Shown here one piece after another: positions 9,179 through 32,306 of a stretch of DNA of 64,000 bases. The stretch is from Pseudomonadota bacterium (lineage in GTDB: Bacteria; Pseudomonadota; Gammaproteobacteria; Burkholderiales; Burkholderiaceae_E). The DNA lies in assembly GCA_029779435.1 (NCBI GenBank), contig JAKPAM010000036.1, forward strand, positions 1 to 64,000, given 5' to 3'. The position numbers were made by a program, and so were the translations under genes. The stretch's first letter is position 1. Each line of letters begins with the position of its first letter. Below the pieces are notes generated by a model that was given only the letters and a program-made list of their open reading frames with translations, searched no databases and was not told the origin of the DNA.

Positions 9179-10807
9179 TCAAGCCTTGTCGGGGACGCCC
9201 CGGCGCGTCAGCGACCGGGCCCAGTTCAGATCCTGTACGTCGACGACCTTCAATCCATAGACGAGCCCGCAGAACAGCAGCGTCGACAGCACGATCGCAG
9301 CCGGCAGCGCGGCCGGAGCCGGCAGGGCCTGGCCGGCGAGCCAGCCCAGCGCCCCGGCCAGCAGCATGCTCAGCGTCAATCGTGCCCAGCGAGACAGGTC
9401 CAGGTGGACCGGCAGGCCCGCGCTGCGCAGCGCGTGGATGACGATCGCCACGAAGATCACGTCGACGACGCATACGATCAGCGGCGCGACGTGCGGATGG
9501 CCGACCAGCGGCATCAGCGTGATCAGCATCGGCGGTATCAGCAGGCACGAGAACGCGCCGCGCAGGTACGCGCCCGATTGGCCGGCCGTATAGCACAGCA
9601 GTTCGATGCCGCGGCGCACCGAATGGCCGATCAGCAGCAGCAACAGCGTCGCGAACAGCCACGGCGGCGACACGACGTTGTGGTTCGACAGCAGGCCGAC
9701 GATCATGTCGCCGGCCGCCATCGCGACCGTCAGCCCCGCGGCGAGCACGATCAGGTTCGCGTCGAGCATGCGGTTGACGTCACCCATCAGCACTTTGAAA
9801 TCCCGTCCGGCGCCCTCATAGCGGCCGATGGTAGCCGGTCGCAGCACGCCGTAGAACATGTCCATTGGTAGATACTTGCGGCTGGTCTCCATCAGCTTGC
9901 ACACGAAGCCGAAGGCCGCCGTCGCGTCGGCGCCCAGGTAGCGGGCCACCAGCGCGGTGGTCAGCTCGGTGCCGGTCAGCATCATCAGCAGGAAGCTGCC
10001 GTACGCGCTGGCCGCGAGCCGATACGAGCGGCGATTGAACCAGGCCGACAGGTCGGCGGACGCATTGGGGCGCGAACGCTGCTTGAGCACCAGGTCGATA
10101 AGCGCGCAGGCGGCGATGACCAGCGCGAAGATCGACGCGGCGATCTCCAGAGACGCGATGTGCGTGGCGTCGATCTCGTGCGACATCGCCATCATCGCCA
10201 GCACGCCGCCGAGCACGATGACCGTTCGGACGATCTGCGAGACCTGGACCGCGCGCTGGCGCAGCAGCGCCGACAGCATCTGGTCCCGCAGCATCCGCGT
10301 CGGCCCCTCGATCACCAGCACCAGCGCGTACAGCTCGAGGACGCGTGGGGAGACGACGCCCGACATCGCTGCCGAAAGGGGGCCGCTGAACAGCCAGCCA
10401 CCGGTCGCCAGCAGCAGGTACGGGACGATCACGATGACGTTGAGCCAGCCGATCGCGTGCCGCAACTGGCGGCGCGATCCGTTGACGTTGATTCGCGTCA
10501 GCGAGGTCTGGATGAACCAGTCCATGCCGCAGGTGCCGAGCACGATGCCGATCTCGAGCATCGCCGCCCCTGCGACGTAGGCCGCGTATTCGGGGCGCGG
10601 CATCACCGCGGCGAGCAGCAGGATCAGCAGGAAGGTCAATGGCGCGCTGATCGCCTTGCCCAGCGCGAAGGCCTTGATGCTCGATTTGATCCGCGCCGTC
10701 GAGTAGCGCTCGACGCGCGGCGACGCGGACTCGGCGTCGTCCTCGTGCGTCCTTGCCTGGCGGCGGCCTTCGTCGGGCGAGCCGGGCGGTCGTTGCGGGA
10801 CGTCCAT
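9179..10807 (-). CDS. wzx: Wzx-type polysaccharide flippase
   Basis: A polytopic membrane protein of 542 residues with about twelve hydrophobic segments (for example FLLILLLAAVM, WLNVIVIVPYLLLATGGWLF and PPMLITLMPLVG). It resembles the MATE/MVF-like O-antigen flippase fold and would move undecaprenyl-linked repeat units to the periplasm. ATG 10807 lies 11 bp after the stop of the preceding GT4 gene, suggesting coupled translation; the first ~50 residues are charged and cytoplasmic. Placement between glycosyltransferases and next to wzy supports the call. No single diagnostic motif exists for the family. Confidence 0.8.
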   Translation of the reverse strand: MDVPQRPPGSPDEGRRQARTHEDDAESASPRVERYSTARIKSSIKAFALGKAISAPLTFLLILLLAAVMPRPEYAAYVAGAAMLEIGIVLGTCGMDWFIQTSLTRINVNGSRRQLRHAIGWLNVIVIVPYLLLATGGWLFSGPLSAAMSGVVSPRVLELYALVLVIEGPTRMLRDQMLSALLRQRAVQVSQIVRTVIVLGGVLAMMAMSHEIDATHIASLEIAASIFALVIAACALIDLVLKQRSRPNASADLSAWFNRRSYRLAASAYGSFLLMMLTGTELTTALVARYLGADATAAFGFVCKLMETSRKYLPMDMFYGVLRPATIGRYEGAGRDFKVLMGDVNRMLDANLIVLAAGLTVAMAAGDMIVGLLSNHNVVSPPWLFATLLLLLIGHSVRRGIELLCYTAGQSGAYLRGAFSCLLIPPMLITLMPLVGHPHVAPLIVCVVDVIFVAIVIHALRSAGLPVHLDLSRWARLTLSMLLAGALGWLAGQALPAPAALPAAIVLSTLLFCGLVYGLKVVDVQDLNWARSLTRRGVPDKA

Positions 10808-10818
10808 CGATCGGGTTC

Positions 10819-12057
10819 TCAGCCTCGCTTGAGTATCGCGCGGCGAGGACGGTCCTGTCCGACCAGGTCGGAGAAGTGTTGGGCCACGTAGTGGCCGAGC
10901 TTGTCGTAGCTGCGGTGGTCGCGCACGTAGCCGTGCCCCTTGGTGGCCATCGCCTTGGACTGCTCGGGCGAACGCAGGCACTCGACGACTGCGTCGGCGA
11001 AGCTCTCGGGCGTCAGCGGAACGCACCATCCGCCGTCGCTTTCGTTGATGACCTTGGCCTGGTCGGGCTGGTCGTTGCAGACGACCGGCACGTTCAGCGC
11101 CAGGTATTCGACGGCCTTGGTCGGCGACGCGTCCTCGAGCAGTTCGCTGCGTAGAAAGGGCGACAGTCCGACCTCGGCGTGGCGGGCCAGCCCGAGGCCG
11201 ACCGCCTGGTTGACGCGGCCGGTCAGGTAGACCCAGTCGGTCGCGCCTTTTTCGACCGCGTAGGCCTTGAGCCAGCCCTTGTCGCTGGGCTCGTCGGCCT
11301 CGCCGATGATCATCAGCCGGAAATCCGGGTAGATCTTGGAGACGCGCAGTGCCGTGTCGACCAGGATCTCGGGTTCGCGATAGCGATCCAGCGTGCCCAG
11401 GTACACGCCCAGACGGCGACCCACCAGCTCGGGGGGTAGCGGGTCGATGGCCGGCGGCAGGTTCTCCATGTCGACGCCCATCGGTACCGGGCACACGCGA
11501 TCGTGGTTCATGCCCTTTTCGCGCAGCTTGACGACCATCGTGTCCGACTGCGCGAACACCCAGTCCGCGCGGCGTACCTGCACGCGATAGAGCAGGTGGT
11601 AGCCGAGCGTGCCGCGCAGCCACGTGTAGAGCCGGCGCGCCGGGCCGACCGATCCGTCCTTGAGCCGGGCGAGGCGCAGGTAGGCCTCGGGCAGCGGGAA
11701 CGAGACCCAGGACACGAAATGGATGCCGGCCAGACGCGCGGCCATCAGTCCGATGACGCCCAGGATCGGCTTGTCTCGTACGACCAGTGCGTCATAACCC
11801 TTGAAGCACAGCCGGAACAGGCTCAGCATCTGCAGCACGTCAGCCAGCATCAGCTTGAACTTGGAAGACCCGTAGCGCAGCAACCGCTGGCCGCCGCCCC
11901 ATTCGGGCGTCTGGTCGACAGGGACTTCGGTGACGCCCAGCAGATCGCTGGTCACGCCGTTGCGCGGCAGGTACTTGCCGAACAACACCTTGACATCCGA
12001 GCGGAACGTGGGATGCGGCTCGGCCGTCGTGAACAACAAACGGACGGGCCTGTTCAT
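10819..12057 (-). CDS. Glycosyltransferase family 4
   Basis: The 412-residue protein has an N-terminal domain starting RLLFTTAEPHPTFRSDVKVL and a C-terminal GT-B donor domain with LGVYLGTLDRYREPEIL, MIIGEADEP and the motif SPTKAVEYLALNVPVV. The start ATG 12057 overlaps the wzy stop by 4 nt (ATGA), so translation is coupled; nine additional in-frame residues upstream belong to the wzy 3' end. It should add a sugar to the lipid-linked EPS intermediate; the donor cannot be read from sequence. Confidence 0.88.
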   Translation of the reverse strand: MNRPVRLLFTTAEPHPTFRSDVKVLFGKYLPRNGVTSDLLGVTEVPVDQTPEWGGGQRLLRYGSSKFKLMLADVLQMLSLFRLCFKGYDALVVRDKPILGVIGLMAARLAGIHFVSWVSFPLPEAYLRLARLKDGSVGPARRLYTWLRGTLGYHLLYRVQVRRADWVFAQSDTMVVKLREKGMNHDRVCPVPMGVDMENLPPAIDPLPPELVGRRLGVYLGTLDRYREPEILVDTALRVSKIYPDFRLMIIGEADEPSDKGWLKAYAVEKGATDWVYLTGRVNQAVGLGLARHAEVGLSPFLRSELLEDASPTKAVEYLALNVPVVCNDQPDQAKVINESDGGWCVPLTPESFADAVVECLRSPEQSKAMATKGHGYVRDHRSYDKLGHYVAQHFSDLVGQDRPRRAILKRG

Positions 12058-13550
12058 CGGGCTTCTTTCTGTCGCCAGCGCCAAGCGACCATCCCCAGGG
12101 TAATAGCCATCAATACTTCCATACTCGGCGCAGACAAAGGCTGTTCACCGGCGAGGAGGAAGACCATCAACGTGCTGATCGAGGCGAGAAGGGTTCGCAG
12201 CAACGCACGATCCCGTCCTGGATCCGCCTGCGCGATCAATCTGATGGTGGTGAACCAGGCCAAGACCAATATCGAAATATACATCAGCGTCCCGACCAGC
12301 CCGACGTCCCACAGCAGCGTCGAGATCGCCGTCAGCCCGATCGCGAAGCCCGGGTAGCGGAGCGCGAGATGGCCTTCGGCTTCGGTGCCCGGCGCGCTGA
12401 ACGAAGCGCCCAGACCATGGCCGAACATCGTTTCGATCGGGTTGTTCGCGCCATGCTGGTTCCACCAGTAAGGCACGACGGTCGTGCGGTTCAGGCTGGC
12501 GCCGGTGTAGTAGCCGGCTTCGCCGAAGTTGTATTGCAAATTCTCGTCCAGCCGTTGCTCGAACGTCATCGGCCGGTCGTCGACGGCCTGCACCGATACG
12601 TACACATAAGTCAGCGCCGCGAGGCCGACCAATGCAACGACCGAGCCCAGGGCGAATACCACTGGTCGCTTACGGACCAGATCGCCATACACGGCCAGCA
12701 GTGCGACCGGCAGCATCACCAGCGCCAGCTTCGTCTCGCCCAGACCCAGCGGCAGCAGGATCAGCAGCAGCAGCGCCGCGCCCATCGGCAGGCTGACGAC
12801 CTTGTCGCGCCACATCGCCAGCACGCCGACCAAGCATACGATCAGGAAATACGCCATCACGTTGCTGTTGCCGCCGCCCATCAGTTCGGCCTCGAAAGTG
12901 CCAGCCACGATGTCGATCGGTACCACGCGGTTCGGCATGTTCAGCCGCATCGGCATCAATACGATGTACTGGTACAACGACATCGGCAATTGCAGCAGCG
13001 CGATGAACAGCAGGAACGCGGCCCAGCGATAGATCGTCCGCTTGTCGATCGGCACGATCGCTAGCGCGAACATCAGGCCCCAGAACTGGAACTGCCGCTT
13101 GACGGCGGTCATCTCGACGCCGAGGCTTCCCTCGCTGAATGCCAGCATCAGCAGCGAGAACGGCAGGTAGATCACCGCGATCCAGATGAAGCCCGGCAGC
13201 GGCGGCCGGTCCATTCGCCGGTCGGTGCCCGCATACAGGATCGCCGCGCCCAGCAGGAAGAAGCCCAGCAGCGAGAACAGCCACGGCACGCGGTTGAGCT
13301 GCGGATAGAACAGCAGCAGCGGGCCGGTCAGGATCAAGGTCCCGAAAAGGATCAGCCAGACGACGGAGGGCACCGCACTGAGCAGCACCAGCCCGATGAC
13401 CAGGCCGACCGTCATCGCGATCAGCATCAGGTTGCCGCTGGCGACCACGACGCCGCTGACGACGGCGGCGAACAGGAAGCCGGCCATCACCGCGAACGAG
13501 ACGAGTTGCTGCGGTGAGGTCAGTGCGTGGAAGTCGAAGGACCGTCGCAT
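12054..13550 (-). CDS. wzy: Wzy-like O-antigen/EPS polymerase
   Basis: A 498-residue inner-membrane protein with about eleven to twelve hydrophobic helices and one large periplasmic loop (about residues 320-400) containing ENLQYNFGEAGYYTGASLNR, followed by MFGHGLGASFS; loops of this kind are characteristic of the Wzy/WaaL superfamily. It would join repeat units at the periplasmic face, with chain length set by EpsF/EpsG encoded immediately upstream. It starts 51 bp after epsG and overlaps the next GT4 gene. Confidence 0.82.
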   Translation of the reverse strand: MRRSFDFHALTSPQQLVSFAVMAGFLFAAVVSGVVVASGNLMLIAMTVGLVIGLVLLSAVPSVVWLILFGTLILTGPLLLFYPQLNRVPWLFSLLGFFLLGAAILYAGTDRRMDRPPLPGFIWIAVIYLPFSLLMLAFSEGSLGVEMTAVKRQFQFWGLMFALAIVPIDKRTIYRWAAFLLFIALLQLPMSLYQYIVLMPMRLNMPNRVVPIDIVAGTFEAELMGGGNSNVMAYFLIVCLVGVLAMWRDKVVSLPMGAALLLLILLPLGLGETKLALVMLPVALLAVYGDLVRKRPVVFALGSVVALVGLAALTYVYVSVQAVDDRPMTFEQRLDENLQYNFGEAGYYTGASLNRTTVVPYWWNQHGANNPIETMFGHGLGASFSAPGTEAEGHLALRYPGFAIGLTAISTLLWDVGLVGTLMYISILVLAWFTTIRLIAQADPGRDRALLRTLLASISTLMVFLLAGEQPLSAPSMEVLMAITLGMVAWRWRQKEAR

Positions 13551-13601: not shown

Positions 13602-14510
13602 TTATTGCGAGTTCAGCGTGGCGCCCAGGATCTGAATGCCCGAGTTCGACATGATGCCGGCCAGTTGCGACAGCTCGGCGGCACGCGTCTTGTCCTTCTT
13701 GCCGACCAGCAGCACGGCGCGCGTGCGCTGCGCGACCACGTGCGCGTCGGACGCCTCCTGCGCCGACGGCGTGTCGACCAGGATCACGTTGTAGCGGCTC
13801 GAGAAGTAGTTGAGCAGATCGGCGAATTCGTGGCTGCCCAGCAGTTCCTGCGGATTCGGCGGTAGCGGCCCCGACGGCAGCACCGACAGGTTGCGGATGT
13901 TGGGCACGTCGACGACTTCTTCCATGCCCGCGCGCCCGGCCAGCACGCCGGACAGTCCCATCTTGTTCTGCAGGCCGAAGATCTGGTTCTGCGTCGGGTG
14001 GCGCAGGTCGGCGTCGATGACCAGCGTGCGTTCGCCGAGCTGCGCGAACACGACGCCCAGGTTGGCCGTGATGAAGCTCTTGCCGTCGCCGCGATCGACA
14101 CTGGTGACCGCCATTGACGTCTGGCCCGGCGATCCGTCGAACCAGCGCAGCATCAACTGGCTGCGCAGGCCGCGCAATGCCTCGACGAAAGGCGAGTTCG
14201 GATTGAACGCCGCGACGACTTTCGTCGGCAGCGTCAGGCTGCTGGTATCGACCTGCGAGTAGCCGTACTGCTGCGACAGCGCATCCTCGACGTCCTTGGG
14301 CCGCGCGAACCCCAGCTTGATCGCGATCTCGCCGAAGCGCTGGTTCGGCGCGCTTTCCTGCTCCTGCAGGACCAGGTCCACCTGACCCGGGTTCATCCGG
14401 CCCTGCCGAACCAGGATCTGACCGATTTTCAGTTCTTTGGCGCTGGAAACCTGGTCGATCGCGGTGGAAGTGGGCTGCATGGTCTTCGGGATAACGTTCA
14501 AGTCGGACAC
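13602..14510 (-). CDS. epsG: EpsG-type chain-length tyrosine-kinase-like ATPase
   Basis: 302 residues. Residues ~25-100 form a GspE-N/MshEN-like domain (IGQILVRQGRMNPGQVDLVL, then IAIKLGFARPKDVEDALSQQ). Residues 110-302 are a CapB/Etk-like P-loop domain: Walker A at 138-146 (VDRGDGKSF), A' VIDADLRHP at 164-172 and B motif ILVDTPSA. Walker A has GDGKS where most relatives have GEGKS. The protein ends at GATLNSQ with no C-terminal tyrosine cluster, so cycles of autophosphorylation as in Wzc are unlikely through that region. It is the cytoplasmic partner of EpsF, 49 bp upstream. Confidence 0.9.
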   Translation of the reverse strand: MSDLNVIPKTMQPTSTAIDQVSSAKELKIGQILVRQGRMNPGQVDLVLQEQESAPNQRFGEIAIKLGFARPKDVEDALSQQYGYSQVDTSSLTLPTKVVAAFNPNSPFVEALRGLRSQLMLRWFDGSPGQTSMAVTSVDRGDGKSFITANLGVVFAQLGERTLVIDADLRHPTQNQIFGLQNKMGLSGVLAGRAGMEEVVDVPNIRNLSVLPSGPLPPNPQELLGSHEFADLLNYFSSRYNVILVDTPSAQEASDAHVVAQRTRAVLLVGKKDKTRAAELSQLAGIMSNSGIQILGATLNSQ

Positions 14511-14559: not shown

Positions 14560-15990
14560 TCAATTGCCCAGGCGCAGCGTCGGCGGCCGCATCGTCGGGC
14601 CGGTACTGCCGATCAGGCGCTGCGGACGGGTCGACGACGCCGAGGGCAGCACGGCGAGGACCGGCACGCCGCTGGCTTGCAGCAAATCTTCGGGGTCGCG
14701 CAGCGGACGCTGGACGACTTCCATCGTCAGGGCGGCCAGGATCGCGATGATCAGGCCCAGGATCGCCCCGATCACCGTGTTCAGCACCGGCTGCGGACGC
14801 GAGGGCTCGGTCGGCACCGTCGCGCGCGTCAGGATCGAGACGTTGGAAGCGCGGTTCTGGCTTTCGAGGCTGGTTTCGTTGTACCGCTGGGTCACGACGT
14901 CGAGCGCGCGCTGGGCGCTCTGCACCTCGCGCTCGAGCACGCTGAGCTGGTCGCGGGACGCGCGCAGCTTCATCACCCGGGCCTTCTGCGCCTCGACCGC
15001 GGCGCGCAGCTCGGCCTCGCGCTGCACGTTGACGGTGTTCAGCGACGTGATGCTGCCGGCGACGCGGGCGGTCTCGGTGTTCAGGCGGCCGCGCAGGCCT
15101 TCGACCTCGGCCTGGGCGCTCATGTACTCGGGGTGGTTGTGGCCCAGCCGTTGGGACAGTTGCTCGAGGCGGGCTTCGGCGCGGCCTAGGTCGGCCTTCA
15201 GCGTCTGGATCAGCGGGTTGGCGACGACGTCGGGCATCGAGTCGCGGTTGCTGCGGCCCAGCGTGTCACGGCGCGAGCGGCTCTCGCCGAGCGCCGTCTG
15301 CACGACGACCAGTTGCTGCGACAGCTCGTTCAGGCGGTTGTTCTCGACGTCGTAGCGCTCGTCGGTGGCCACGATGCCGCTGGCCTGCTGCGCGGCGGAC
15401 AGCTTGGACTGCGCCTGCTCGAGCTGCTGGCGGGCCGTCTTGGACTGTTCTTCGAACCAGACGCGGAAATTCTTGGCCGGCTCGGTCTTCAGGTCGACCG
15501 ACGCGGCGACATACGAATCGGCGAACGCGTTGACGATCCGTTCGACGAGGACGGGGTCGGTGCCCTCGTAGCTGACGGTGATCGTGCTGCCTTCACGCGA
15601 CGACGAGACGGTCAGCTTCTTGAGCAGCGCGTCGCTGATCATCGCGCGCATCATCTCGGGCGTCGGCGTCGTGTCCGCGGGCGTCTGGACGCCCACCAGC
15701 CCAGGGTGGTCCAGCAGCCCGAGCGTGTCGATGACCTTGCCGACCACGCGCTGGCTGCGGATGATGTCGTTCTGCGTGGACAGGTACGATTGGATCGTAT
15801 ACGGCGTGCCGACGGCCCCGCCGAGCACCGGATCGGTGCCGCGCATATCGACGACTACCGTGGTCGCGGCCGTGTACTTTTTCGTGATGATCAGGCTGAC
15901 CACCACGGTCGTCAGGACCGTGATCAGGAAGATCGTGCCGACGAGCTTGATGCGCGCCTTGACGATCCGGAAGAGTTGACCCAAAACCAT
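14560..15990 (-). CDS. epsF: EpsF-type chain-length determinant (Wzz/GNVR)
   Basis: A 476-residue inner-membrane co-polymerase. It has an N-terminal helix (LVGTIFLITVLTTVVVSLIIT), a Wzz domain, long periplasmic coiled coils rich in Glu/Gln/Ala, a GNVR-like region and a second helix near the C-terminus (VIGAILGLIIAILAALTMEVV) followed by the proline-flanked RPLRDPEDLL motif. ATG 15990 is chosen for its GGGGAA ribosome site and because 57 upstream in-frame residues have no membrane or family signal. It is the first gene of the polymer operon that runs to 5484. Confidence 0.92.
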   Translation of the reverse strand: MVLGQLFRIVKARIKLVGTIFLITVLTTVVVSLIITKKYTAATTVVVDMRGTDPVLGGAVGTPYTIQSYLSTQNDIIRSQRVVGKVIDTLGLLDHPGLVGVQTPADTTPTPEMMRAMISDALLKKLTVSSSREGSTITVSYEGTDPVLVERIVNAFADSYVAASVDLKTEPAKNFRVWFEEQSKTARQQLEQAQSKLSAAQQASGIVATDERYDVENNRLNELSQQLVVVQTALGESRSRRDTLGRSNRDSMPDVVANPLIQTLKADLGRAEARLEQLSQRLGHNHPEYMSAQAEVEGLRGRLNTETARVAGSITSLNTVNVQREAELRAAVEAQKARVMKLRASRDQLSVLEREVQSAQRALDVVTQRYNETSLESQNRASNVSILTRATVPTEPSRPQPVLNTVIGAILGLIIAILAALTMEVVQRPLRDPEDLLQASGVPVLAVLPSASSTRPQRLIGSTGPTMRPPTLRLGN

Positions 15991-16845
15991 GAAAATTCCC
16001 CGAATAAGGCTCGAGTGGAGTTTAAGCGAGAGGGGGGCGGATCCCGTGAAAAAATCCGCTGCAGTCGATTTATTTTCCTCGATTGCGAGGATCGGACAAG
16101 GGCAATAGTTCACCTTCCTCGCATCGAGCCGGCCAGTGGGCGGCCGGGGCGCGCCCGACATCGAACCCGGCCTCTACCGTAACCATCTGGCCCCCGCTGT
16201 CAAAGCCGCCTTCGACCAGCGGAGGGTGTCGGCGGAATGCCGGTCCATCGGTCTGGCGAGGCCGGGACCGGCGGCCGATTCCGCCGCGTCCGCCCGGCGG
16301 CATCCGCTCGTCGGGCGCCGCCATCGGTGGTCAACCCATGCCGGCCGCCACGGCCCGGGCGGCCGGGCGCGGACAACGGAACGCGAACGTGTGAGGGGAG
16401 ATCCATAGGGGGCCGCGGCGAGCTGGCACAGGCATGAGAGGGGGCAGCAAGGTAACGAGGAAACAACGCGAGTTTTCCGCCCGCGGATCGGCGCGAAGCC
16501 GGCATCCCGCGGCCCATGCGAGCCGCAGGGCGGAAGTCGGTCATCGAATGGCAAGCGTCGCGCCGGACGTATCGGACCGATGCGGCACCGCGGCCGTATC
16601 GTTCACAGAATCCAGTCGCGGATCGCATCGAATCCAGACACCGATGGCATGGCCGAACTCGGATTCGCGCTGACGCCACCCGGCTGGAGTGGCGGAAATC
16701 GGCGTCAGTGTGCAGTCAGAGGCGCGAATGTGGAAGCGTCTTGTTGTTGGCGGGCAACGCTATACGTCCGTCGCATTGACAGATCAGGCATTCGTGCCGG
16801 CCGATCGTTTCGCCGTCCTGGAAGAGGGCGTGGAAGCATGCGTCG
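15991..16845. other. Upstream region of the epsF operon
   Basis: 855 bp without a supported gene; overlapping frames lack domains. The 100 bp nearest epsF are A/T-richer (16020-16080) and probably hold the operon promoter: on the minus strand TTGTCC followed 18-19 nt later by AAATAA is a weak candidate. A small palindrome CCTCG-ATTG-CGAGG (16077-16090) and a related half (CTTCCTCGCATCGAG near 16114) could be an operator. From 16200 to 16845 I see nothing. Confidence 0.45.
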
Positions 16846-17769
16846 TCATTCGAGGGGGGGTGGGTCGGCGCGGAACGCCGCTTCGGTGATGCCGCCCCCC
16901 GGCTCCTGCCTGCCGACGTCGGAGAACGTCGTCGCGCTGAACGCCTGCCAGTCGTTGGTGACGCGCTTGCTGCGCGCCGTCATCGCCGACGGGACGATGA
17001 ACTTCCACGTCGTCGAGGTGTCCTTGTAATAGTCATTGCCGATCTGCACCAGGTAGCGGGCCTTGGCACGATCGTCGGGGAGCTTGGGATCGTCGACGAC
17101 CAGGCGGGCCTGCAGCGTGACGAACAGTGCGGCGATGTCGGTCGGATCGATCGGCACGCGGTTGCGCGCCCACCAGCCGTGCCATGCATAGTTGGCGTCG
17201 GCGGGAGGCTTGATCTCGCTCGATCCGTCGCCATTCGTGCGATTGTTCTCGGCAGTCGTCGCGCCGAACAGCGCGCTCTTGCCATACACGGCACCGCTGA
17301 CGCCTGCGCTGCTGCCCAGCGAGACCCACTGGCCATTGGCCTTGCTCTTGTAGTACGCACGGAAGTTGCGGACCTGCACGCGCGTATTGACCGCCTCGTT
17401 GCCGACGCCGTCGAAGATCACGACCCACGGCAGCATCGCGCGCAAATAGTCGGACGAGACGTTGGCGGGGTTATACGACTTCCACCACGACGGGGTATTG
17501 GTCAGCCGCGGATCGTTGCCGATCATCACGTGGCCGGGACCGACGTACCAGCCCGAGGTCTTGTCCTCGTAGCCGCGCAGCACCATGTCGTTCTTCAACT
17601 TCATGTCGTTGACGACGGTGTCGATGCTGTTGATGGGGGAGCGAGCGGTCTGGGCGAGGGACGGTGCGGCGGCGGCCGCGTTGCCGCCGGCCGCGTGGGC
17701 CGGCATCCCAGCGATATTCGCCAACCCCCAGGCCGCCAGTCCGACGGCGACGATTCGGTAGCGCTGCAC
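16846..17769 (-). CDS. Secreted protein, paralogue of the lipoprotein's C-terminal domain
   Basis: 307 residues from GTG 17769, preceded by GGAAGG about 6-11 nt upstream; the longer frame upstream is non-homologous. Residues 1-27 are a Sec signal peptide (VGLAAWGLANIAGMPAHA). Residues ~46-307 match residues 509-771 of the neighbouring lipoprotein almost throughout, including GWYVGPGHVMIGND, NFRAYYKSKANGQWVSLGSS, YAWHGWWARNRV and the common end GGGITEAAFRADPPPLE. I do not recognise the domain. Its aromatic, Trp/Tyr-rich composition would fit a beta-sandwich or carbohydrate-contacting fold, but that is a guess. It is a tandem duplicate, 152 bp downstream of the lipoprotein. Confidence 0.8.
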   Translation of the reverse strand: MQRYRIVAVGLAAWGLANIAGMPAHAAGGNAAAAAPSLAQTARSPINSIDTVVNDMKLKNDMVLRGYEDKTSGWYVGPGHVMIGNDPRLTNTPSWWKSYNPANVSSDYLRAMLPWVVIFDGVGNEAVNTRVQVRNFRAYYKSKANGQWVSLGSSAGVSGAVYGKSALFGATTAENNRTNGDGSSEIKPPADANYAWHGWWARNRVPIDPTDIAALFVTLQARLVVDDPKLPDDRAKARYLVQIGNDYYKDTSTTWKFIVPSAMTARSKRVTNDWQAFSATTFSDVGRQEPGGGITEAAFRADPPPLE

Positions 17770-17921: not shown

Positions 17922-20237
17922 TTACTCGAGCGGGGGCGGTGCCGCGCGGAAGGCCGCTTCGGTGATGCCGCCGCCAGGCTCCTGCATGCCGACGTTCGAG
18001 AACGTCGTCGCGCTGAACGCCTGCCAGTCGTTGGTGACGCGCTTGCTGCGTGCCGTCATCGCCGACGGGACGACGAAGGCCCACGACGTATTGACGTCCT
18101 TATAGTAGTCGTTGCCGACCTGGACCAGATAGCGGGCGTTGGCACGATCATCGGGACGCGACGTGTTGTCGACGACCAGGCGGGCCTGCAGCGTGACGAA
18201 CAGCGCGGCGATGTCGGTCGGATTGATCTCCACGCGGCCGCGGCCCCACCAGCCGTGCCAGGCATAGTTGACGTCCGCCGGCGGCTTGACCTCGCTCGAT
18301 CCATCGGCGTTCGTGCGCCGGTCCTCGGGCGTCGTCGCGCCGAAGAGGGAGCTCTTGCCATACACGGCGCCGCCGACGCCCGCGCTGCTACCCAGCGAAA
18401 CCCACTGTCCGCTGGATTTGCTCTTGTAGTACGCGCGGAAGTTGCGGATATGCACGCGCGTGTTCGACGCGTTGTGGCCGACCCCATCGAAGATCACGAC
18501 CCAGGGCAACGTCGCGCGCAGGTAGTCACCGGTCGCGCGTCCGGGGTTCGAGGCCTTCCACCACGACGGCGTATTGGTCAACCGTGCATCGTTGCCCATC
18601 ATCACGTAGCCGGGACCGACGTACCAGCCCGAGGTCATGTTCTCGTAGCCGCGCAGCACCATGTCGTTCTTCAACTTCATGTCGTTGACGATGGTGTCGA
18701 CGGTGTTGATCGTCGTCGTCACGACCGGCGTGCCGCCGGGGGCCTTGCCGCCGACGTCGCTGCTGCCCGAGCCGCCCGACGACGAACCGCCCGAGCTACC
18801 CGAGGACGAGTTGCCCGACGAGGATCCGCCCGAAGAAGATCCGTTCGACGAAGATCCGCCCGACGACGAGCCACCGGAGGACGAGCCACCGGAGGACGAG
18901 CCACCGGAGGACGAGCCATTGGTGCTGCTGTCGACCGACGACGTCATCCACGACAGCGTGGGCGCGTTGTAGGTCGCGCGCGGATACGGATGGCCGGTGG
19001 CCGGGATCGTCTTGTCCCACTGGCGCGCGTCGGCCAGGATCGCCGTCTGCAGCAGCGCATAGCCCTGCTCATAAGTGCGGTTCGACGTGAAATAGTCGGT
19101 CGTGGCATAGCTGGCCCACGTCTGCACGGCGGTACTGTTCGGATTGTTGCCGCCCGGATACCAGTCGACGAGGTCGTGGAAGATCTTCTGTACGGCCTGC
19201 AGCGGCGTCAGGCGCTGGACGACCGTCGATGACGAGCCGCTATTGGACGAGCCACTGCTGGACGAGCCACTGCTGGATGAACCGCCATTGGACGAGCCAC
19301 TGTTGGACGAACCACTGTTGGACGAACCGTTGCTGGACGAACCGCTGGAGCCCGTGTCTTTCGGCGTCGTCGCCGTCGTGTCGTTCATCCAGCTCAGCGC
19401 GGGCGCGTTGTACGTGGCGCGCGGATACGGATGGCCGGCGGCCGGGATCGTCTTGTCCCACTGGCGCGCATCGGCCAGGATCGCCGCCTGCAGCAGCGCA
19501 TAGCCTTCTTCATAAGTGCGGTTCGACGTGAAGTAGTTCGACGTGGCATAGCTGGCCCACGTCTGCACGGCGGTACTGTTCGGATTGTTGCCGCCTGGAT
19601 ACCAGTCGACGAGGTCGTGGAAGATCTTCTGCACGGCCTGCAGCGGCGTCAGGCGCTGCGTCGTCGTCGACGAGCCGCCGGTGTTCGGGGCCGTCGATGT
19701 CGTCTGGGTCATCCAGCTCAGCGTTTCGGCCTTGTAGGTCGCGCGCGGATACGGATGGCCGGTGGCCGGAATCGTCTTGTCCCACTGGCGCGCGTCGGCC
19801 AGGATCGCCGCCTGCAGCAGCGCGTAGCCCTGCTCATAAGTGCGGTTCGACGTCAGGAAGCTGGATGCCGCATAGCTGGCCCAGGACTGCACGGCGGCAC
19901 TGTTCGGATTGTTGCCGCCCGGATACCAGTCGATCAGGTCGTGATAGATCTTCTGCACGGCTTGCAGCGGCGTCAGCTTCGACAGGTCGGCGGTCGCGAC
20001 GGTGGTGTTCGTCGCAGCCGCTTTCGACGAGGCTTCGATCGTGCGGGCCGATGCTTCCGCCGCGGTGTCGGCGGACATGTCGGCGCCGGATCCGGCGCCT
20101 CCGCAAGCGGACAGCGACAGCGTCGCGGCGAACAATGCGGCGATCGCGCAGGCGGGGCGGATACGGGACGGGACGGGAGCGCGGAATGGGTCGGAGGCTG
20201 GTTGCCAGTGAGGGGTGCGCGGGCTCATCGCGTTCAT
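17922..20237 (-). CDS. Repeat-containing outer-surface lipoprotein of unknown function
   Basis: 771 residues. The N-terminus has a hydrophobic stretch and lipobox LSAC (Cys45). Three ~89-residue repeats follow at 88-176, 196-284 and 343-431, each running from LTPLQAVQKI through DWYPGGNNPNS and TSNRTYEQGYALLQ to PYPRATYNAPTLSW. They are joined by Ser/Gly linkers (285-342 and 432-506) built of GSSS-type units. Residues 509-771 form the domain shared with the gene at 16846. ATG 20237 has AAGG 7-10 nt upstream. I do not recognise either domain. Position inside the EPS/adhesin locus suggests an envelope or matrix role; the linkers suggest that the repeat units extend from the membrane. Confidence 0.8.
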   Translation of the reverse strand: MNAMSPRTPHWQPASDPFRAPVPSRIRPACAIAALFAATLSLSACGGAGSGADMSADTAAEASARTIEASSKAAATNTTVATADLSKLTPLQAVQKIYHDLIDWYPGGNNPNSAAVQSWASYAASSFLTSNRTYEQGYALLQAAILADARQWDKTIPATGHPYPRATYKAETLSWMTQTTSTAPNTGGSSTTTQRLTPLQAVQKIFHDLVDWYPGGNNPNSTAVQTWASYATSNYFTSNRTYEEGYALLQAAILADARQWDKTIPAAGHPYPRATYNAPALSWMNDTTATTPKDTGSSGSSSNGSSNSGSSNSGSSNGGSSSSGSSSSGSSNSGSSSTVVQRLTPLQAVQKIFHDLVDWYPGGNNPNSTAVQTWASYATTDYFTSNRTYEQGYALLQTAILADARQWDKTIPATGHPYPRATYNAPTLSWMTSSVDSSTNGSSSGGSSSGGSSSGGSSSGGSSSNGSSSGGSSSGNSSSGSSGGSSSGGSGSSDVGGKAPGGTPVVTTTINTVDTIVNDMKLKNDMVLRGYENMTSGWYVGPGYVMMGNDARLTNTPSWWKASNPGRATGDYLRATLPWVVIFDGVGHNASNTRVHIRNFRAYYKSKSSGQWVSLGSSAGVGGAVYGKSSLFGATTPEDRRTNADGSSEVKPPADVNYAWHGWWGRGRVEINPTDIAALFVTLQARLVVDNTSRPDDRANARYLVQVGNDYYKDVNTSWAFVVPSAMTARSKRVTNDWQAFSATTFSNVGMQEPGGGITEAAFRAAPPPLE
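18720..19976 (-). repeat. Three ~267-bp coding repeats with Ser/Gly linkers
   Basis: Repeat units lie at 19710-19976, 19386-19652 and 18945-19211. Units 2 and 3 are nearly identical at DNA level and unit 1 is slightly more diverged. Linker DNA at 19212-19385 and 18720-18944 consists of short in-frame GGA/TCC-rich repeats (plus-strand GACGAGCCACC-type) that would be prone to slippage and copy-number change without loss of frame. Confidence 0.85.
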
Positions 20238-21011: not shown

Positions 21012-22418
21012 TCAGATCAGGCGCATCGCATCGACGATGCGCAGATCGGCGGCCATGTTCAGCGTATGGACGCGCAGCATGCCGTGGCGTGCGTCGCCCT
21101 GCAGATGCAGGTGTTCGCGTTCACGATAATGCTCGGGATCCAACTCGACGATCTCGCGGATCGAGAGCGATTCTCCGTAGGCGCGGCCGCAGTTCTGCGC
21201 CGGACGCAGCAGCTTGCCGTCGACGACCAGCGGACGTCCGGCGGGGCGGGCCCAGCGCGCGTCGTCGACGATCGGGTTGCCCGGATGCGGGGTCCACGGG
21301 CCAAGCGGTGTCGGACCGTGGAACAGGCACAGCTCGTCGTCGAGCGTGGCGCCCAGGTGCATCCTCGACGCGAACATCCACCAGCGTCCTTCGTGTTCGA
21401 CGAGGCTCGGGTCGGCCAGCCGCTCGCCTCGCAGATGCTGGGCGTGCAGCGTCCAGCGGTCCGGCCAGCGCTCGCAGCGATAGACCTCGATGCACTGGTT
21501 CTCCGAGCATTCCGGCATCATGTACCACTGGCCCTGCCACGGGAACATGAACGGATACGACAGGTGGTAGGGCCGTTCCAGCACGCGTACCGGCGGCGTC
21601 GCGCGGCCGTCCGGCAGCAGTTCGAGCACGCTGATGTGGCCGCGCTGGGTCGCGAACGGCAGCTCTTCGAAGAAGACGTGGCAGCGTCCGTCCACGACGA
21701 CCGGAAACGGATCGGCCCAGAACGCGCCGGGCGGCGGCAGGATCGGTGTCCCGCGCGAGAAATCGATCGGCGCCAGCGGATGCGCCGGCCGATCGGCGAA
21801 CAGCACCCACTGCTGCTTGCGGCGAAGGCGTTCGAACAGCTTGGCGGTCAGCGCGCGGCCCGTGTGCCCGGCCAATTCGCCGGCACTCAGCGGCGCGGGC
21901 GGCGCGTCGCCGGCCGCCTGCTCGGGCAGGATGTCGGGCAGGCGCGCGAACCATCGGTTGACGAAATCGGTCGAGCGCTTTCGCGCGATCGCCAGCGAAC
22001 GCGACGGCAGGTGCGCGCGCATCATGCTCGCGCCGCCGATCAGTCGCCGGGTCGCGCCGCCGGCCGAGACGTCGACCAGTTCGCTCCAGACCCCGTCGCG
22101 GCCGATCCACGAATGCAGGCCCAGCAGCGGCCGGCTGAGTGCGTGGGCGGCACGGGCCAGCGATTCGACGGGGACTTCGGGGACCACCAGGTGGTCGATC
22201 GCCCGTGCCGCATCCGGGGTCGCGGGTGGGTCGACGACCACGGCCCGCGCGCCGGCGACGGCGGCCAGTTGCTGCCGGACCTGGGCGGCGAGTTGGGCCG
22301 ACACCGCGCCGCGGCCGATCGACATGCCGGCCAGGCGCCCCAGCGCGGCGGCATCGAGGATCGCGACGCGCGGTCGGGTATCCGGCGGCGCGGCGCCTTG
22401 GGGCGAGGGGGCGGGCAT
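21012..22418 (-). CDS. GINT1_N-type five-bladed beta-propeller protein
   Basis: 468 residues. The C-terminal two thirds (from ~235) match the domain known from the N-terminus of plant glucosamine inositolphosphorylceramide transferase 1 and from bacterial formyltransferase-like EPS proteins: GAFWADPFPVVVDG, HVFFEELPF, RGHISVLEL, PYHLSYPFMFPWQGQWYMMPE, DPSLVEHEGRWWMFAS and LGPWTPHPGNPIV. The fold is that of GH43/GH32-like propellers. The N-terminal third (with LGLHSWIGRDGVW) has a formyltransferase-fold flavour but no clear catalytic motif. It is the last gene of the tailoring module, 13 bp after the GMC gene; it may transfer or remodel a sugar substituent. Confidence 0.78.
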   Translation of the reverse strand: MPAPSPQGAAPPDTRPRVAILDAAALGRLAGMSIGRGAVSAQLAAQVRQQLAAVAGARAVVVDPPATPDAARAIDHLVVPEVPVESLARAAHALSRPLLGLHSWIGRDGVWSELVDVSAGGATRRLIGGASMMRAHLPSRSLAIARKRSTDFVNRWFARLPDILPEQAAGDAPPAPLSAGELAGHTGRALTAKLFERLRRKQQWVLFADRPAHPLAPIDFSRGTPILPPPGAFWADPFPVVVDGRCHVFFEELPFATQRGHISVLELLPDGRATPPVRVLERPYHLSYPFMFPWQGQWYMMPECSENQCIEVYRCERWPDRWTLHAQHLRGERLADPSLVEHEGRWWMFASRMHLGATLDDELCLFHGPTPLGPWTPHPGNPIVDDARWARPAGRPLVVDGKLLRPAQNCGRAYGESLSIREIVELDPEHYREREHLHLQGDARHGMLRVHTLNMAADLRIVDAMRLI

Positions 22419-22431
22419 CAGGTGGCGGGTT

Positions 22432-24027
22432 TCAGGCAGCGGGTTTCATCGAGGCCGGTGCCGGGGTCGGTGCCGGTGCAGTCGATCCGGCCGACGCGGG
22501 TTTCGCCGGAGCCGGTCCGGTCGAGGCGTCCCCGGAAGCGGGCCGCCCGCGGGTGGCTGGCGCCGGCTGGGTCGTCACGCCCAGCGCGCCCGCGCCGTCG
22601 GGCCGTGCCAGGTGGTCGGCCAGCCGACAGGCCAGTTGGACGATCGTCCAGGTCGGATTGGCCTGGCCCGCGCTCGGAAACACCGACGAGCCGCAGATGT
22701 AGAAGTTCGACAGGCCGTGGACGCGCAGGTCGGCATCCACGACGCCGCGCTGCGGATCCGTGCTCATCCGTGTACCGCCCATGTGATGGTTGCCGCGGAT
22801 CTCGTCATCGTCGGGGAAGTCGCCGTCGGCGGCCAGCCACGGCAGCATCTTCGCGCGGCCCATGTTGGTGCGGATCAGGTATTCGCCGAACATCTGGAAC
22901 ACCCGGCGCGCGGTCGTGCGCTCGATGTCGCCGTATTCCCAGTGCAGGTCCACGCGCGGAATGCCGAGCGCGTCGCGGGCCGTGCCCAACGTGACGCGGT
23001 TCCACGGCAGCGGCGCCTGTTCCCAGTTGGCGCGGATCTGCGTGCCGCACACCAGCTTGTACTTGAGCTTGTTCAGCGCCCATTGCGCGGTATCGGGCGC
23101 GACGCAGGCCAGGTCGGCCACCAGCGCCTTGGTGCCCTCGTAGTGCATCGCGTGCAGGCGCAGCGCGCAATTGAGCACGTGGCGCTCGCGGATCGCGTGC
23201 GTCGTCGGCGAGATGTACGCGGTGTTCTTCTGGTCGAAAGTCCACGGTACCTGCGTCGTGTTCAGCAGCGCCTCGCCGAGCGTGAAATGCGGATGTTCCA
23301 TCCAGTAGCGGCCCAGCGCGGTCGGCGTCTTGACGATGCGGTTGCCGTTGATGGCGTTGAACCACAGCAGCAGGCGGCTGTTCTCGATGCCGCCCGCGCA
23401 CAGCACGTAGCGCCGCGCGGTGATCGTCTCGTCCCGGTTGTCCGCGCCGCGCACGATCAGACCGGTGATCTGGCCGCCCCGTTCGGTGACGTTGATCAGC
23501 GCCGCCTGGGTGACGACGGTGACGTTCGGCGATTTCTCGAGCGATTCGCGGTACTTGACGTTGAAGTTGGTCGGCGGCGAGTACGAGAAATGGATGTACG
23601 TGAGGTTGTCGTCCAGCGGCTGGTCGGCGGGAACCGGCTTCAGGTCCAGGATCTCGCTGGACAGGCCGGCATACGGATCGAGATCGCTGCGCTTGATCGG
23701 CCATTCGCCGTCGACGCCCGGGATCTTGTTCTCGAAATCATGGGCATCGAGACGACGGCTCCAGCCGCCCCAGTGGTTCGACGTGCCGCCGAAGAAGCGC
23801 AGCCGCGCCACCGACAGCGGAAACGACAGCTTGCCGAAGACGTCGCCCTCGTACAGCGCCTGCGATTCGACGCTGTATTCCATCGGGCCGGCTTCGAGCA
23901 GCAGGACCGACAGGCCTCGCTTGCCGAGCAGCTCGGCGAGCGTGATGCCCGCGGGCCCGGCACCCACGAGGCAGACGTCATACGTGCGCCGGCCGTCGGC
24001 GACGGCATTCAGGTTCGGTGCCAGCAT
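22432..24027 (-). CDS. GMC-family FAD oxidoreductase
   Basis: 531 residues with the Rossmann FAD motif VGAGPAGITLAELL (residues ~21-34), LRFFGGTSNHWGGWSRRLD, GGIENSRLLL and the C-terminal catalytic region GNHHMGGTRMSTDP and SVFPSAGQANPTWTIVQLA. Relatives oxidise alcohols or sugars (large subunits of gluconate, fructose and sorbitol dehydrogenases). The last ~50 residues are an Ala/Pro-rich tail. ATG 24027 shares one base with the stop of the tiny Tat gene (TGATG), so the two are translationally coupled. The enzyme has no signal peptide of its own, so export would need the partner's Tat signal. The substrate is unknown; an EPS or nucleotide-sugar hydroxyl is plausible. Confidence 0.87.
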   Translation of the reverse strand: MLAPNLNAVADGRRTYDVCLVGAGPAGITLAELLGKRGLSVLLLEAGPMEYSVESQALYEGDVFGKLSFPLSVARLRFFGGTSNHWGGWSRRLDAHDFENKIPGVDGEWPIKRSDLDPYAGLSSEILDLKPVPADQPLDDNLTYIHFSYSPPTNFNVKYRESLEKSPNVTVVTQAALINVTERGGQITGLIVRGADNRDETITARRYVLCAGGIENSRLLLWFNAINGNRIVKTPTALGRYWMEHPHFTLGEALLNTTQVPWTFDQKNTAYISPTTHAIRERHVLNCALRLHAMHYEGTKALVADLACVAPDTAQWALNKLKYKLVCGTQIRANWEQAPLPWNRVTLGTARDALGIPRVDLHWEYGDIERTTARRVFQMFGEYLIRTNMGRAKMLPWLAADGDFPDDDEIRGNHHMGGTRMSTDPQRGVVDADLRVHGLSNFYICGSSVFPSAGQANPTWTIVQLACRLADHLARPDGAGALGVTTQPAPATRGRPASGDASTGPAPAKPASAGSTAPAPTPAPASMKPAA

Positions 24028-24224
24028 CAGCGGTCGCTCGACAGCAGCAGCCAGCCCTGGCGCTGTTCGACGAGCTCGACGAGCGCGCGTGCCGCGAACG
24101 GCATCGCGGCGGTGGCGGTCAACCCGAGCGCGGCCTTGCACCAGTCGCGGCGCGATAGCGTCGATGGCGCGAGCGGGGGCAGCGGATGCGAGACGGGGAA
24201 TCGGGAGGAGGGGGTGGACATCAT
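24027..24224 (-). CDS. 65-residue Tat-signal protein, probable GMC small subunit
   Basis: Residues ~24-47 form a twin-arginine signal: SRRDWCKAALGLTATAAMPFAARA. Only ~18 residues follow (VELVEQRQGWLLLSSDR). The start ATG 24224 overlaps the GT14 stop by 4 nt (ATGA) and its stop overlaps the GMC start (TGATG), so it is a real coupled cistron. In gluconate and fructose dehydrogenases a small subunit with a Tat signal carries the folded GMC subunit to the periplasm; those subunits are usually 150-200 residues. This looks like a minimal version consisting of little more than the signal. Confidence 0.7.
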   Translation of the reverse strand: MMSTPSSRFPVSHPLPPLAPSTLSRRDWCKAALGLTATAAMPFAARALVELVEQRQGWLLLSSDR

Positions 24225-25236: not shown

Positions 25237-26784
25237 TCACGGCGAGGCCGGGGCCGGACATGCGACGCCCGGCGCGGCGGTCGAATACTTTCGCGATTCG
25301 TACAGCGCGGCGTGGTTGTCGGGCCGGCGCGAACGGTTCAGCGCCAGTTCCATCAACTGGCGCGACAACGTGTAGTGCTTGAGCGGCAGGTCGGCGTCCG
25401 GCGGGTTGGCGTCGATCGTCAGCGTGATGTGGCCGTCCTGCGAATTGCCGGCGATCGTCCAGTTGGTCGTCGCATTGTGCAGCTTGAAGTTGCCGATCTC
25501 GACCGGCAGCGGCTGGCGCGGCGCGTCGAACACGTGCTGGGATCCGTCGAGGTAGAACGCGGTCACCAAGGCGCGCAGCCCGGTCTGGCAGCTGCCCTGG
25601 CCCGAATAGGCATCGACTACCGACAGGTCCGGCCCGCAGAAGCCCTGGGTGACGGTGCCGCCGGCGAACGCGCCGCGGGTGCCGAAGAAGCGCGTCGACG
25701 TGTCGAGCGCGCGCATCGCCTCGCCGATCGTCACCGATTGCGGATCGAGCGCCGCGGCCGTCAGCAGGCCGGTGGCCGCCCCCAGCCGGTAGCAGACGCT
25801 GCGGCCGTACATCGGATGCCCCTGCGGCCCGAAGAAGTGCTTGAAGAAAGCGCCGAACTCGCCCTGTGCCTTGCGGATGAAGGTCGGGTACAGGTCCGGC
25901 TGCATCTGGTTGAGCCAGAACAGGTTGTAGTGGATCGCCCAGGAGTTGTAGTAGTCGAAGCCATTGGGCGGATCATCGAACCAGCCCTCGCCGCGGTACA
26001 GCGAGCGGAACCGCTCGAACATCGTGATCGCGCGCTCGTCGTAGCCCGATACGTCGACGCCCAGCGCCCGCAGCGTCGCATAGACGACCAGCGGCGGCAG
26101 AGACCAGTTGCCCGAGTACATCTTGACTTCGAGCGCCTGACGCAGCCAGGTGGCGATCTGCGTGCGCTGCGCCGGCGTCAGCTTGGCCCAGACCTGGTCG
26201 CGCGACAGCCACAGCGCCAGCGCGATGTCGCCCGATTCGTAGGCGACCTGGTCGTAGTCCTTGAGCTTGCCCCAATATTCGGGGCCGGCCGGATCGGTGC
26301 CCGCCAGCAGGCCCTGGGTCAGCAGTTCGCTGACGAGCACGCGGCGCTGGCCGAGAACGACGTTGTCGGCGCGGCCGCTGGCGAGCCAGGCGCTGGCCAG
26401 CGGCGCGAAACGCGCGAACCCTTCGACGCCGTCGATCGGGTGGCCATTGTCGCTGGGCGCGCCGGGCAGGAACACGCGCGCGCCCAGAGGCGAACGATAG
26501 TTGACGAAACCTTCGAGCAGGTATTGGAACAGGTGCTCGTAGGCGGAAGTGGGTACCGCGGGCCCCTTGGCGGACAGTTCATTCAGCAGGTCGGCGCGCT
26601 GGATGGCCGATGGTTCGACCGGCGTGGTGCGGTCCGACCAGCCCGGCACGCCGCGGACCTGTCTCAACGCGACGACGCCAGCCGCCACCACGACGGCGAC
26701 GAGCACGAGCAGCACGAACGGCCAGCGCCGCCAACGGCGCTGCCGTGGGCGATCTGCTGGGTTGAGTGATGCTGCTGCCGCCAC
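25237..26784 (-). CDS. Membrane-anchored DUF2264 alpha/alpha-barrel protein
   Basis: 515 residues. A basic N-terminus and one helix (PFVLLVLVAVVVAAGVVAL, residues ~22-40) anchor it in the inner membrane with the domain in the periplasm. The body matches DUF2264: GVEGFARFAPLASAWLAS, EYWGKLKDYDQVAYESGDIALALWLSRD, FDYYNSWAIHYNLFWL and GRSVCYRLGAATGLLTAAAL. The family shares the (alpha/alpha)6 fold of unsaturated-uronyl hydrolases and some polysaccharide lyases, so a polysaccharide-cleaving or editing role is likely but not shown. It lies 119 bp downstream of hlyD. Confidence 0.82.
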   Translation of the reverse strand: MAAAASLNPADRPRQRRWRRWPFVLLVLVAVVVAAGVVALRQVRGVPGWSDRTTPVEPSAIQRADLLNELSAKGPAVPTSAYEHLFQYLLEGFVNYRSPLGARVFLPGAPSDNGHPIDGVEGFARFAPLASAWLASGRADNVVLGQRRVLVSELLTQGLLAGTDPAGPEYWGKLKDYDQVAYESGDIALALWLSRDQVWAKLTPAQRTQIATWLRQALEVKMYSGNWSLPPLVVYATLRALGVDVSGYDERAITMFERFRSLYRGEGWFDDPPNGFDYYNSWAIHYNLFWLNQMQPDLYPTFIRKAQGEFGAFFKHFFGPQGHPMYGRSVCYRLGAATGLLTAAALDPQSVTIGEAMRALDTSTRFFGTRGAFAGGTVTQGFCGPDLSVVDAYSGQGSCQTGLRALVTAFYLDGSQHVFDAPRQPLPVEIGNFKLHNATTNWTIAGNSQDGHITLTIDANPPDADLPLKHYTLSRQLMELALNRSRRPDNHAALYESRKYSTAAPGVACPAPASP

Positions 26785-26903: not shown

Positions 26904-28094
26904 TCAACGTTCGCGCAAACCTTCCCGGGCTCGATTCAACGGTTTGAGCAGGTAGTGCAAAACCGTCTTCTTGCCTGACAGCATTTCGACCGAGGCCGTC
27001 ATCCCGGGAATGATCGGCAACGGTTTTCCATCGGGTTGGTGCAGCGCGTTCGCGAAAGTTCGTACCAATACCCGATAGTATGAATGCTGGTCGTCGGTGA
27101 CATCGGCCACGGGTTGGCCGGCTCGTCTCTCGTCCCGAACGGTATCCGGGCTGATGTTTTCGACGATTCCGTCCAATCCTCCGTAGATCGCATAGTCGTA
27201 GGCACTGATCTTGACGACCGCGCGTTGGCCCGGGTGCAGGAAGGCCACGTCCGCGGGCCGTACATAGGCTTCGACCATCAGCGTATCTTCGGACGGCACG
27301 ATCAGAAGGATATCCTGTCCGGCCTGTATAACGCCTCCGATCGTGTTGATCTTGACGCTTTTGACGGTTCCCTTCATCGGCGAACGGATCTCGGTACGCT
27401 GATAGGCGTCTTCGCGCGCCAGCATCGTCTCCCGGCTCTGCGCCAATTCGGATTCGTACTTGAGCAGGTCGGCCGCCGCTTCGACACGGAATTTGTTTTG
27501 GCGATCAGCTAGTTGCAACGCGAGATCGTTGCGTTGTCGTTTCAATCGCAACAGTTCGACTTCCGAGACCAGTCCGCGGGCGACCATCGGCTCGGTGATC
27601 TGGACTTCGCGATCGAGCAGCTTCATCCCGTTGGTCAGGCCCGACACCATCTCGTCGAGCGAACGGCGGCGGGCGTTGTAGGCCTCCGTCTCGCGCCGCA
27701 GCAGTTCGGGCTGGGCGCGCACCTCGGGCGGAAACTCCAGCTTGCCGCCGTAGGCCTCGGCGCGCAGCCGAGCGGCCGAGGCGGCCAGCGCGGCGCTCTT
27801 GGCCTGCATCTCGCGGTACAGCGCCGACGCGCGGGTATCGTCGATGCGCAGCAGCAACTGTCCTTTCTCGACTTCCTGGCCTTCGTGGACCAGCATCTCG
27901 GTCAGCACGCCGGGGTCCAGGCTCTGGATCACCTGCTCGCGGCTGGAAGGCACGACACGGCCCTGACCCCGGGTGACCTCTTCGAGTTCGGCGTTGTAGG
28001 CCCACAACACGAACGCCAGGATCAAGCCCGCCAGCAACGCGACGCTCAGGAAGCCGAACCACGGCAGTTCGCGCTTGAAACGGGTGCGGCTCAT
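26904..28094 (-). CDS. HlyD-family type I secretion adaptor
   Basis: 396 residues: one N-terminal helix (FLSVALLAGLILAFVLWAY), a biotinyl-lipoyl half-motif (EMLVHEGQEVEKGQLLLRIDD), a long coiled-coil hairpin (~100-230), the returning lipoyl half (YQRTEIRSPMKGTVKSVK) and a beta-barrel domain ending LLKPLNRAREGLRER. It bridges the ABC transporter and TolC. ATG 28094 overlaps the ABC stop by 4 nt. G+C changes inside the gene, from ~75% near 27720 to ~50% in sampled lines at 27301 and 27481. Confidence 0.93.
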   Translation of the reverse strand: MSRTRFKRELPWFGFLSVALLAGLILAFVLWAYNAELEEVTRGQGRVVPSSREQVIQSLDPGVLTEMLVHEGQEVEKGQLLLRIDDTRASALYREMQAKSAALAASAARLRAEAYGGKLEFPPEVRAQPELLRRETEAYNARRRSLDEMVSGLTNGMKLLDREVQITEPMVARGLVSEVELLRLKRQRNDLALQLADRQNKFRVEAAADLLKYESELAQSRETMLAREDAYQRTEIRSPMKGTVKSVKINTIGGVIQAGQDILLIVPSEDTLMVEAYVRPADVAFLHPGQRAVVKISAYDYAIYGGLDGIVENISPDTVRDERRAGQPVADVTDDQHSYYRVLVRTFANALHQPDGKPLPIIPGMTASVEMLSGKKTVLHYLLKPLNRAREGLRER

Positions 28095-32199: not shown

Positions 32200-32306
32200 A
32201 GCACCCGAGATTGGACACTGATGGACGGACACGGTCCATCGTCTGTTGCGGGATTGCCGACAAAGCGGGCCGCGTGATCCCGGCGCTGACGCGCGCCCGA
32301 GTCGGC

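Follow-up and report, generated by a model that had tools for sequence, protein, structure and literature searches.

How a secreted, non-covalently held exopolysaccharide (EPS) stays on the cell is poorly known, and a lipoprotein gene inside an EPS locus of a Burkholderiales bacterium leads us to ask whether its product could have a part in this. The gene lies in the window, by which we mean the whole 64,000-nucleotide stretch of DNA analysed. The initial annotation placed it at 17922-20237 without giving its strand, and described a lipoprotein with three repeats of ~89 residues on Ser/Gly tethers and a C-terminal domain (CTD) of ~260 residues, an arrangement that it likened to a surface-displayed binding protein. 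The coordinates were right, and the gene proved to lie on the minus strand; the plus strand of 17922-20237, read as a frame, contains two stops. The parts of the gene are as follows.

17922-20237, minus strand: lipoprotein gene, 771 aa, with signal peptide, three repeats, linkers and CTD (from the translation)
20103-20237, minus strand: lipoprotein signal peptide with lipobox LSAC (Cys45), followed by Gly-Gly (sequence and pattern scan)
19698-19979, minus strand: repeat 1
19374-19655, minus strand: repeat 2 (low-confidence three-helix model)
19218-19376, minus strand: Ser/Gly/Asn linker between repeats 2 and 3, residues 288-340 (edges approximate)
18936-19214, minus strand: repeat 3
18720-18932, minus strand: Ser/Gly linker from repeat 3 to the CTD, residues 436-506 (edges approximate)
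17925-18719, minus strand: CTD, predicted to be all-beta, ending in PPPLE (alignments and model)

The lipobox and the modular order of repeats, linkers and C-terminal domain are both evident in the translation, with the CTD occupying residues 507-771 (265 residues). The description of the linkers as Ser/Gly tethers holds for the ~53 residues between repeats 2 and 3 (27 Ser, 10 Gly, 5 Asn) and the ~71 residues between repeat 3 and the CTD (34 Ser, 23 Gly), but not for the linker between repeats 1 and 2, which is short (~13 residues) and Thr-rich (5 Thr, 2 Ser, 2 Gly). The protein ends in FRAAPPPLE, without the Pro-Glu-Pro, transmembrane helix and basic cluster of an exosortase/PEP-CTERM substrate, and the whole protein gave NCBIfam matches only far below cut-off.

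The three repeats begin at residues 88, 196 and 343 and are 83-91% identical in protein and 86-92% identical in DNA, so the repetition is not due to chance. A single-sequence search found the repeat in one of 399 order-level genomes, its own, and a five-row profile matched two of 398 phylum-level genomes, again its own and G259, where the match covers 27 columns of what appears by eye to be an FAD-dependent amino-acid dehydrogenase; we took the latter as chance. The repeat was absent from the viral contigs searched, and five single repeats had no match in Pfam. DUF7004, the best Pfam match of the whole protein (21.1 bits, cut-off 27), disappeared when single repeats were used as queries, and DUF4214, which the helix pattern had brought to mind, reached an hhalign probability of 0.08% over 9 columns, with few sequences on both sides. 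The best matches in a sequence search of solved structures with the whole protein covered either the Ser/Gly linkers or repeat 3 together with linker sequence, and we attributed them to composition. The structure search proposed in the initial annotation was carried out for the repeat with a poor model of three helices (mean pLDDT 63.8, from an alignment of three rows); its Protein Data Bank matches all had E > 1 and were not used. Judged by sequence searches of 399 order-level and 398 phylum-level genomes, which returned nothing convincing outside its own genome, the repeat is an orphan module.

The CTD is a different case. In line with the initial annotation, which recognised neither module, it belongs to no known family: the window CTD matched nothing in Pfam, NCBIfam or PHROGs, and the CTD of a neighbouring copy (see below) nothing in Pfam or NCBIfam. 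It is, nevertheless, a real family, so far without a name. Among 101 related genomes, a single-sequence search detected it in 21, including the genome of the window itself, and a 32-row profile in 23; across the phylum it was present in three of 398 genomes (its own, G800 of the same class, and G718 of another class). The 23 CTD loci from named genomes comprise 16 from Burkholderiales, including Lautropia, four from Nostocales, and one each from Cytophagales, Methylococcaceae and Paraglaciecola, and a plasmid search added one Nostoc plasmid match that was 36% identical over part of the domain. We found no description of the domain in print among titles and abstract openings, which does not prove that there is none. 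The initial annotation treated repeat and CTD as one design; the CTD family is in fact widespread, and the searches made recovered the repeat only from its own genome.

The AlphaFold2 model of the CTD is confident (pLDDT 91.7, pTM 0.91) and consists of 14 strands and two short helices, all-beta. The Foldseek search of solved structures suggested earlier was run and returned no match at E <= 1e-3, while the best VIA-align matches (highest Z 4.8) were scattered across different beta-sandwiches. We read the domain as a probable beta-sandwich from these weak matches; searches with the predicted structure point to neither a new nor a known fold.

A Pro-Pro-Pro motif near the CTD C-terminus is invariant in the 32-row alignment and is not kept in the most distant members. 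Seven polar residues (Arg88, His155, Arg180, Asp190, Asp191, Arg192 and Asp204, window numbering) are retained in at least 90% of 19 diverse rows, a phage row included. Such conservation would suit an enzyme, such as an esterase, lyase or hydrolase, that modifies or cuts the exopolysaccharide while its lipid anchor keeps it at the envelope, and depolymerases are frequent on phage tail proteins. However, the CTD matches no catalytic family in Pfam or NCBIfam, the conserved polar residues may be structural, and Asp190-Asp191-Arg192 is missing from the row of a Paraglaciecola homolog in a likely prophage (L074). In one protein (L045), the CTD is followed by a separate GDSL hydrolase, which suits a binding role for the CTD itself. 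We consider a catalytic CTD unlikely.

The surroundings of the gene confirm that it is encoded inside an EPS locus: glycosyltransferases are present, the EpsF, EpsE and WcaJ models score above cut-off, and those for EpsG and EpsL fall just below. The relevant genes are listed here, together with an adjacent stand-alone CTD gene that the initial annotation had overlooked.

16846-17769, minus strand: stand-alone CTD protein adjoining the lipoprotein gene (proposed GTG start; Sec-type signal by eye, without lipobox)
14560-16161, minus strand: EpsF chain length determinant (TIGR03017 above cut-off on 14563-16092)
13602-14510, minus strand: EpsG-type tyrosine kinase (TIGR03029, 303.6 bits, just under the 313.8 cut-off)
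12054-13550, minus strand: Wzy-like polymerase, named by eye (no Pfam or NCBIfam match; conserved beside the CTD)
10819-12084, minus strand: glycosyltransferase (PF13692, PF00534)
9179-10699, minus strand: Wzx-like flippase, named by eye (no Pfam match on 9182-10549, no NCBIfam match on 9182-10693; conserved in related loci)
38596-40050, minus strand: undecaprenyl-phosphate glucose phosphotransferase, WcaJ type (TIGR03023 above cut-off)
40125-41429, plus strand: EpsL-like outer membrane protein (TIGR03014, 259.1 bits, below the 275 cut-off)
41621-42520, plus strand: EpsE polysaccharide export protein (TIGR03028 above cut-off)

The locus holds several further genes on the minus strand. The interval 26907-38436 contains type I secretion genes (HlyD type; the ABC protein was identified by eye) together with genes for two large proteins with Ig repeats (Big_12, Big_13) that are likely matrix adhesins; similar genes also adjoin a distant CTD protein in G006 (L046), where we saw type I secretion genes and a glycosyltransferase. 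A DUF2264 protein (25240-26784) and a GMC oxidoreductase (22435-24081) are kept beside CTD genes in several loci of lake Burkholderiales, and 21015-22418 encodes a GINT1_N domain protein (glucosamine inositolphosphorylceramide transferase type), here in a bacterial EPS locus.

The CTD of the stand-alone neighbour is 81% identical to that of the lipoprotein. Elsewhere in the genome, contig C26 encodes a third copy, with two repeats and a CTD that is 84% identical. A 42-row tree unites the three copies in a single clade (100/100), and duplication within this lineage is therefore their probable origin. The C26 locus (L033) contains a sugar transferase, CpsB/CapC and an acyltransferase; a second Gly-rich, lipoprotein-like protein of ~580 residues lies near the CTD copy (L033:1222-2967, minus strand) and has no NCBIfam match.

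Among the 42 selected CTD proteins, 30 have a lipobox, as do 26 of the 28 from Burkholderiales, by a pattern that we loosened after a stricter version (22/42) had missed clear cases. Only two of seven Nostoc copies have a lipobox-like stretch. What precedes or follows the CTD varies. L054 has a RicinB_lectin_2 domain (28.4 bits, cut-off 25.6) and then the CTD, and in L107 the CTD is followed by repeats whose NCBIfam Ig-like match, at 61.3 bits, falls far short of the cut-off of 750. In genus g2, to which Lautropia belongs, seven proteins have about 390-690 residues between lipobox and CTD; by eye these spans resemble Ig-type repeats, and the one tested (L060) had no Pfam match.

These architectures bear on whether the lipoprotein is instead a periplasmic accessory of EPS polymerisation or export. 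Outer-membrane lipoproteins face the periplasm by default, and the position of the gene beside those for EpsF, EpsG and Wzy would fit such a function. The long lipobox-CTD spans of the genus g2 proteins, however, would exceed the reach that the periplasm requires, and neither a CTD copy without a lipobox nor the CTD homologs in phage described below are readily accommodated. A periplasmic accessory is, in our judgement, an improbable explanation.

We then asked how closely the domain follows EPS loci, since the initial annotation had named occurrence unrelated to such loci as an outcome that would speak against it. Nineteen of the 101 related genomes have both the CTD and the locus Wzy, four the CTD only, nine the Wzy only and 69 neither (Fisher P 2.4e-10, a value that overstates the case because the genomes are related). 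The association is tight: the locus Wzy is present in 19 of the 23 genomes with a CTD, and in 18 of these 19 the two genes are on one contig, 0.9-8.6 kb apart, the remaining pair being on two contigs. The CTD is missing from nine of the 28 Wzy genomes, and two of the four CTD-only genomes (G007, G053) have mere fragments of the domain.

When the EPS proteins of the window were searched for in 37 CTD loci, several of which are the same contig taken twice, 25 of them, by our own count, matched three or more of the queries (EpsF, EpsG, Wzy, Wzx or glycosyltransferase). The other 12 include the C26 locus (L033), L046 and the likely prophage L074. Also among the 12, a Nostoc locus (L069) has Wzy_C, Polysacc_synt and glycosyltransferases near the CTD, and L070 and L072 resemble it by eye. 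Two loci, L106 and L107, were read in addition to the 37. L107, from G718 of another proteobacterial class, encodes a glycosyltransferase that scores above cut-off, and its Wzy_C and GNVR matches are just below. As far as the loci were read by eye, EPS genes were not seen near the CTD in L045, L066, L068, L106 (G800) and L109; L067 and L073 are short loci. The genus g2 (Lautropia) CTD proteins at L045:9025-10725 and L109:8920-10716 thus lie outside EPS loci as far as read. Separately, L064 and L067 come from a record titled as a Bordetella parapertussis bin; its EPS locus matches Burkholderiales bins, and the title may be wrong.

Exosortase genes are present in many EpsF-type loci. To place the CTD relative to the exosortase system, we searched within 20 kb of 61 EpsF matches (down to E 2.3e-65) for the CTD and for exosortase PF09721. 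The CTD alone was found in 17 loci, exosortase alone in 19, neither in 25 and both in none (P 5.6e-4, again overstated by kinship). Because the EpsF matches were ordered by their similarity to the EpsF of the window, relatedness brings CTD loci to the top of the ranking. Contig breaks may also hide neighbours: the EpsF loci of G052 and G057, where EpsF and CTD fall on separate contigs, were scored as having neither. Six of the 23 CTD genomes (G023, G028, G031, G038, G052, G060) do have an exosortase, always on another contig than the CTD, and G031 and G060 contain both kinds of locus, separately. No exosortase was found in the genome of the window, at 84% completeness.

Relatives of the CTD also occur in phage. 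When predicted viral proteins were searched by structure, three of them matched at E <= 1e-3: a tail protein (E 1.1e-11), a protein with an SH3 domain (5.9e-9, TM 0.75) and, from a podovirus, an uncharacterised protein (6.0e-6). On the IMG/VR contig 3300046539_000030 (L078), we detected a CTD homolog by profile (E 3.7e-29), separated by four genes from a tape measure gene, which places a CTD homolog in a phage tail module on this one contig. The phage protein shares with the window protein a homologous CTD, including the NPPP motif, after which a tail follows in the phage protein; it differs in having a coiled-coil-like start (by eye) and no lipobox that we could find, and it is 21-28% identical to 18 other aligned rows. 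A viral pattern scan gave six stretches, two of them with a CTD, the L078 contig and L111, a short contig whose viral nature is unsure. The Paraglaciecola homolog lies in a likely prophage (L074), which also encodes an integrase and a protein that contains Big_9 and matches Chondroitinase B below cut-off. Counting against a phage link, tblastn with three CTD queries found no match in 50,697 phage records, and no PHROGs family corresponds to the domain; of the further viral scans, one recovered the L078 contig again and the others nothing.

The homolog in a phage tail region and the structural matches to three predicted phage proteins raise the idea that the cell has domesticated a receptor-binding domain of phages and uses the CTD copies to mask its EPS and block phage adsorption. 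The phage rows, however, sit on long, unsure branches of the tree, so that transfer may have gone in either direction, and the conserved place of the domain inside EPS loci suits a house-keeping role. We regard domestication as very improbable. The phage relative does point to recognition of a polymer.

Taken together, the modular build with its signal peptide, the link to EPS loci, the fusions to lectin and hydrolase domains and the phage relatives fit a polysaccharide-binding domain. The explanation that we favour, at a probability of about 0.5, is that the protein sits in the outer membrane as a lipoprotein and tethers the exopolysaccharide that the cell itself makes, in a type of locus that lacks exosortase/PEP-CTERM. 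A lipid on Cys45, predicted from the signal sequence, would anchor the protein, the repeats and Ser/Gly linkers would give reach, and the CTD would bind the polymer made by the same locus; the neighbouring copy without a lipobox may bind polymer away from the membrane. CTD-type loci could then stand as an alternative to EpsF loci of the exosortase/PEP-CTERM type, the polymer being retained by lipoproteins. A broader proposal, which we put forward only tentatively and think rather unlikely, is that CTD lipoproteins are a second, exosortase-free way for EpsF-type bacteria to hold EPS and that the holding domain is common to host and phage tails, such that tether and phage would compete for the same polymer. 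A confidently predicted and so far nameless domain marks one class of EPS locus in Burkholderiales, including Lautropia, and recurs in cyanobacteria.

The tether role is suggested by analogy with three known systems. Wzi, an outer-membrane lectin of the Escherichia coli group 1 capsule, binds the cell's own polysaccharide at the outer membrane (PMC3791409), the job proposed here for the CTD. The two differ in build: Wzi is an 18-stranded beta-barrel, and the lipoprotein carries its CTD as an all-beta domain of 265 residues, modelled with 14 strands and two helices. In the Caulobacter holdfast anchor complex (PMC6707917), proteins likewise anchor a polysaccharide at the outer membrane, a likeness in role. 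A further parallel is with exosortase/PEP-CTERM proteins, which are similarly secreted, diverse and linked to EPS genes (PMC1569441, PMC9850573). Where those proteins have a C-terminal sorting signal, CTD proteins have a lipobox, and the search 20 kb around the 17 CTD-type EpsF loci turned up no exosortase. According to PMC9850573, the PEP-CTERM protein PepA lowers released EPS and raises bound EPS, which is the role that we propose for the CTD lipoproteins.
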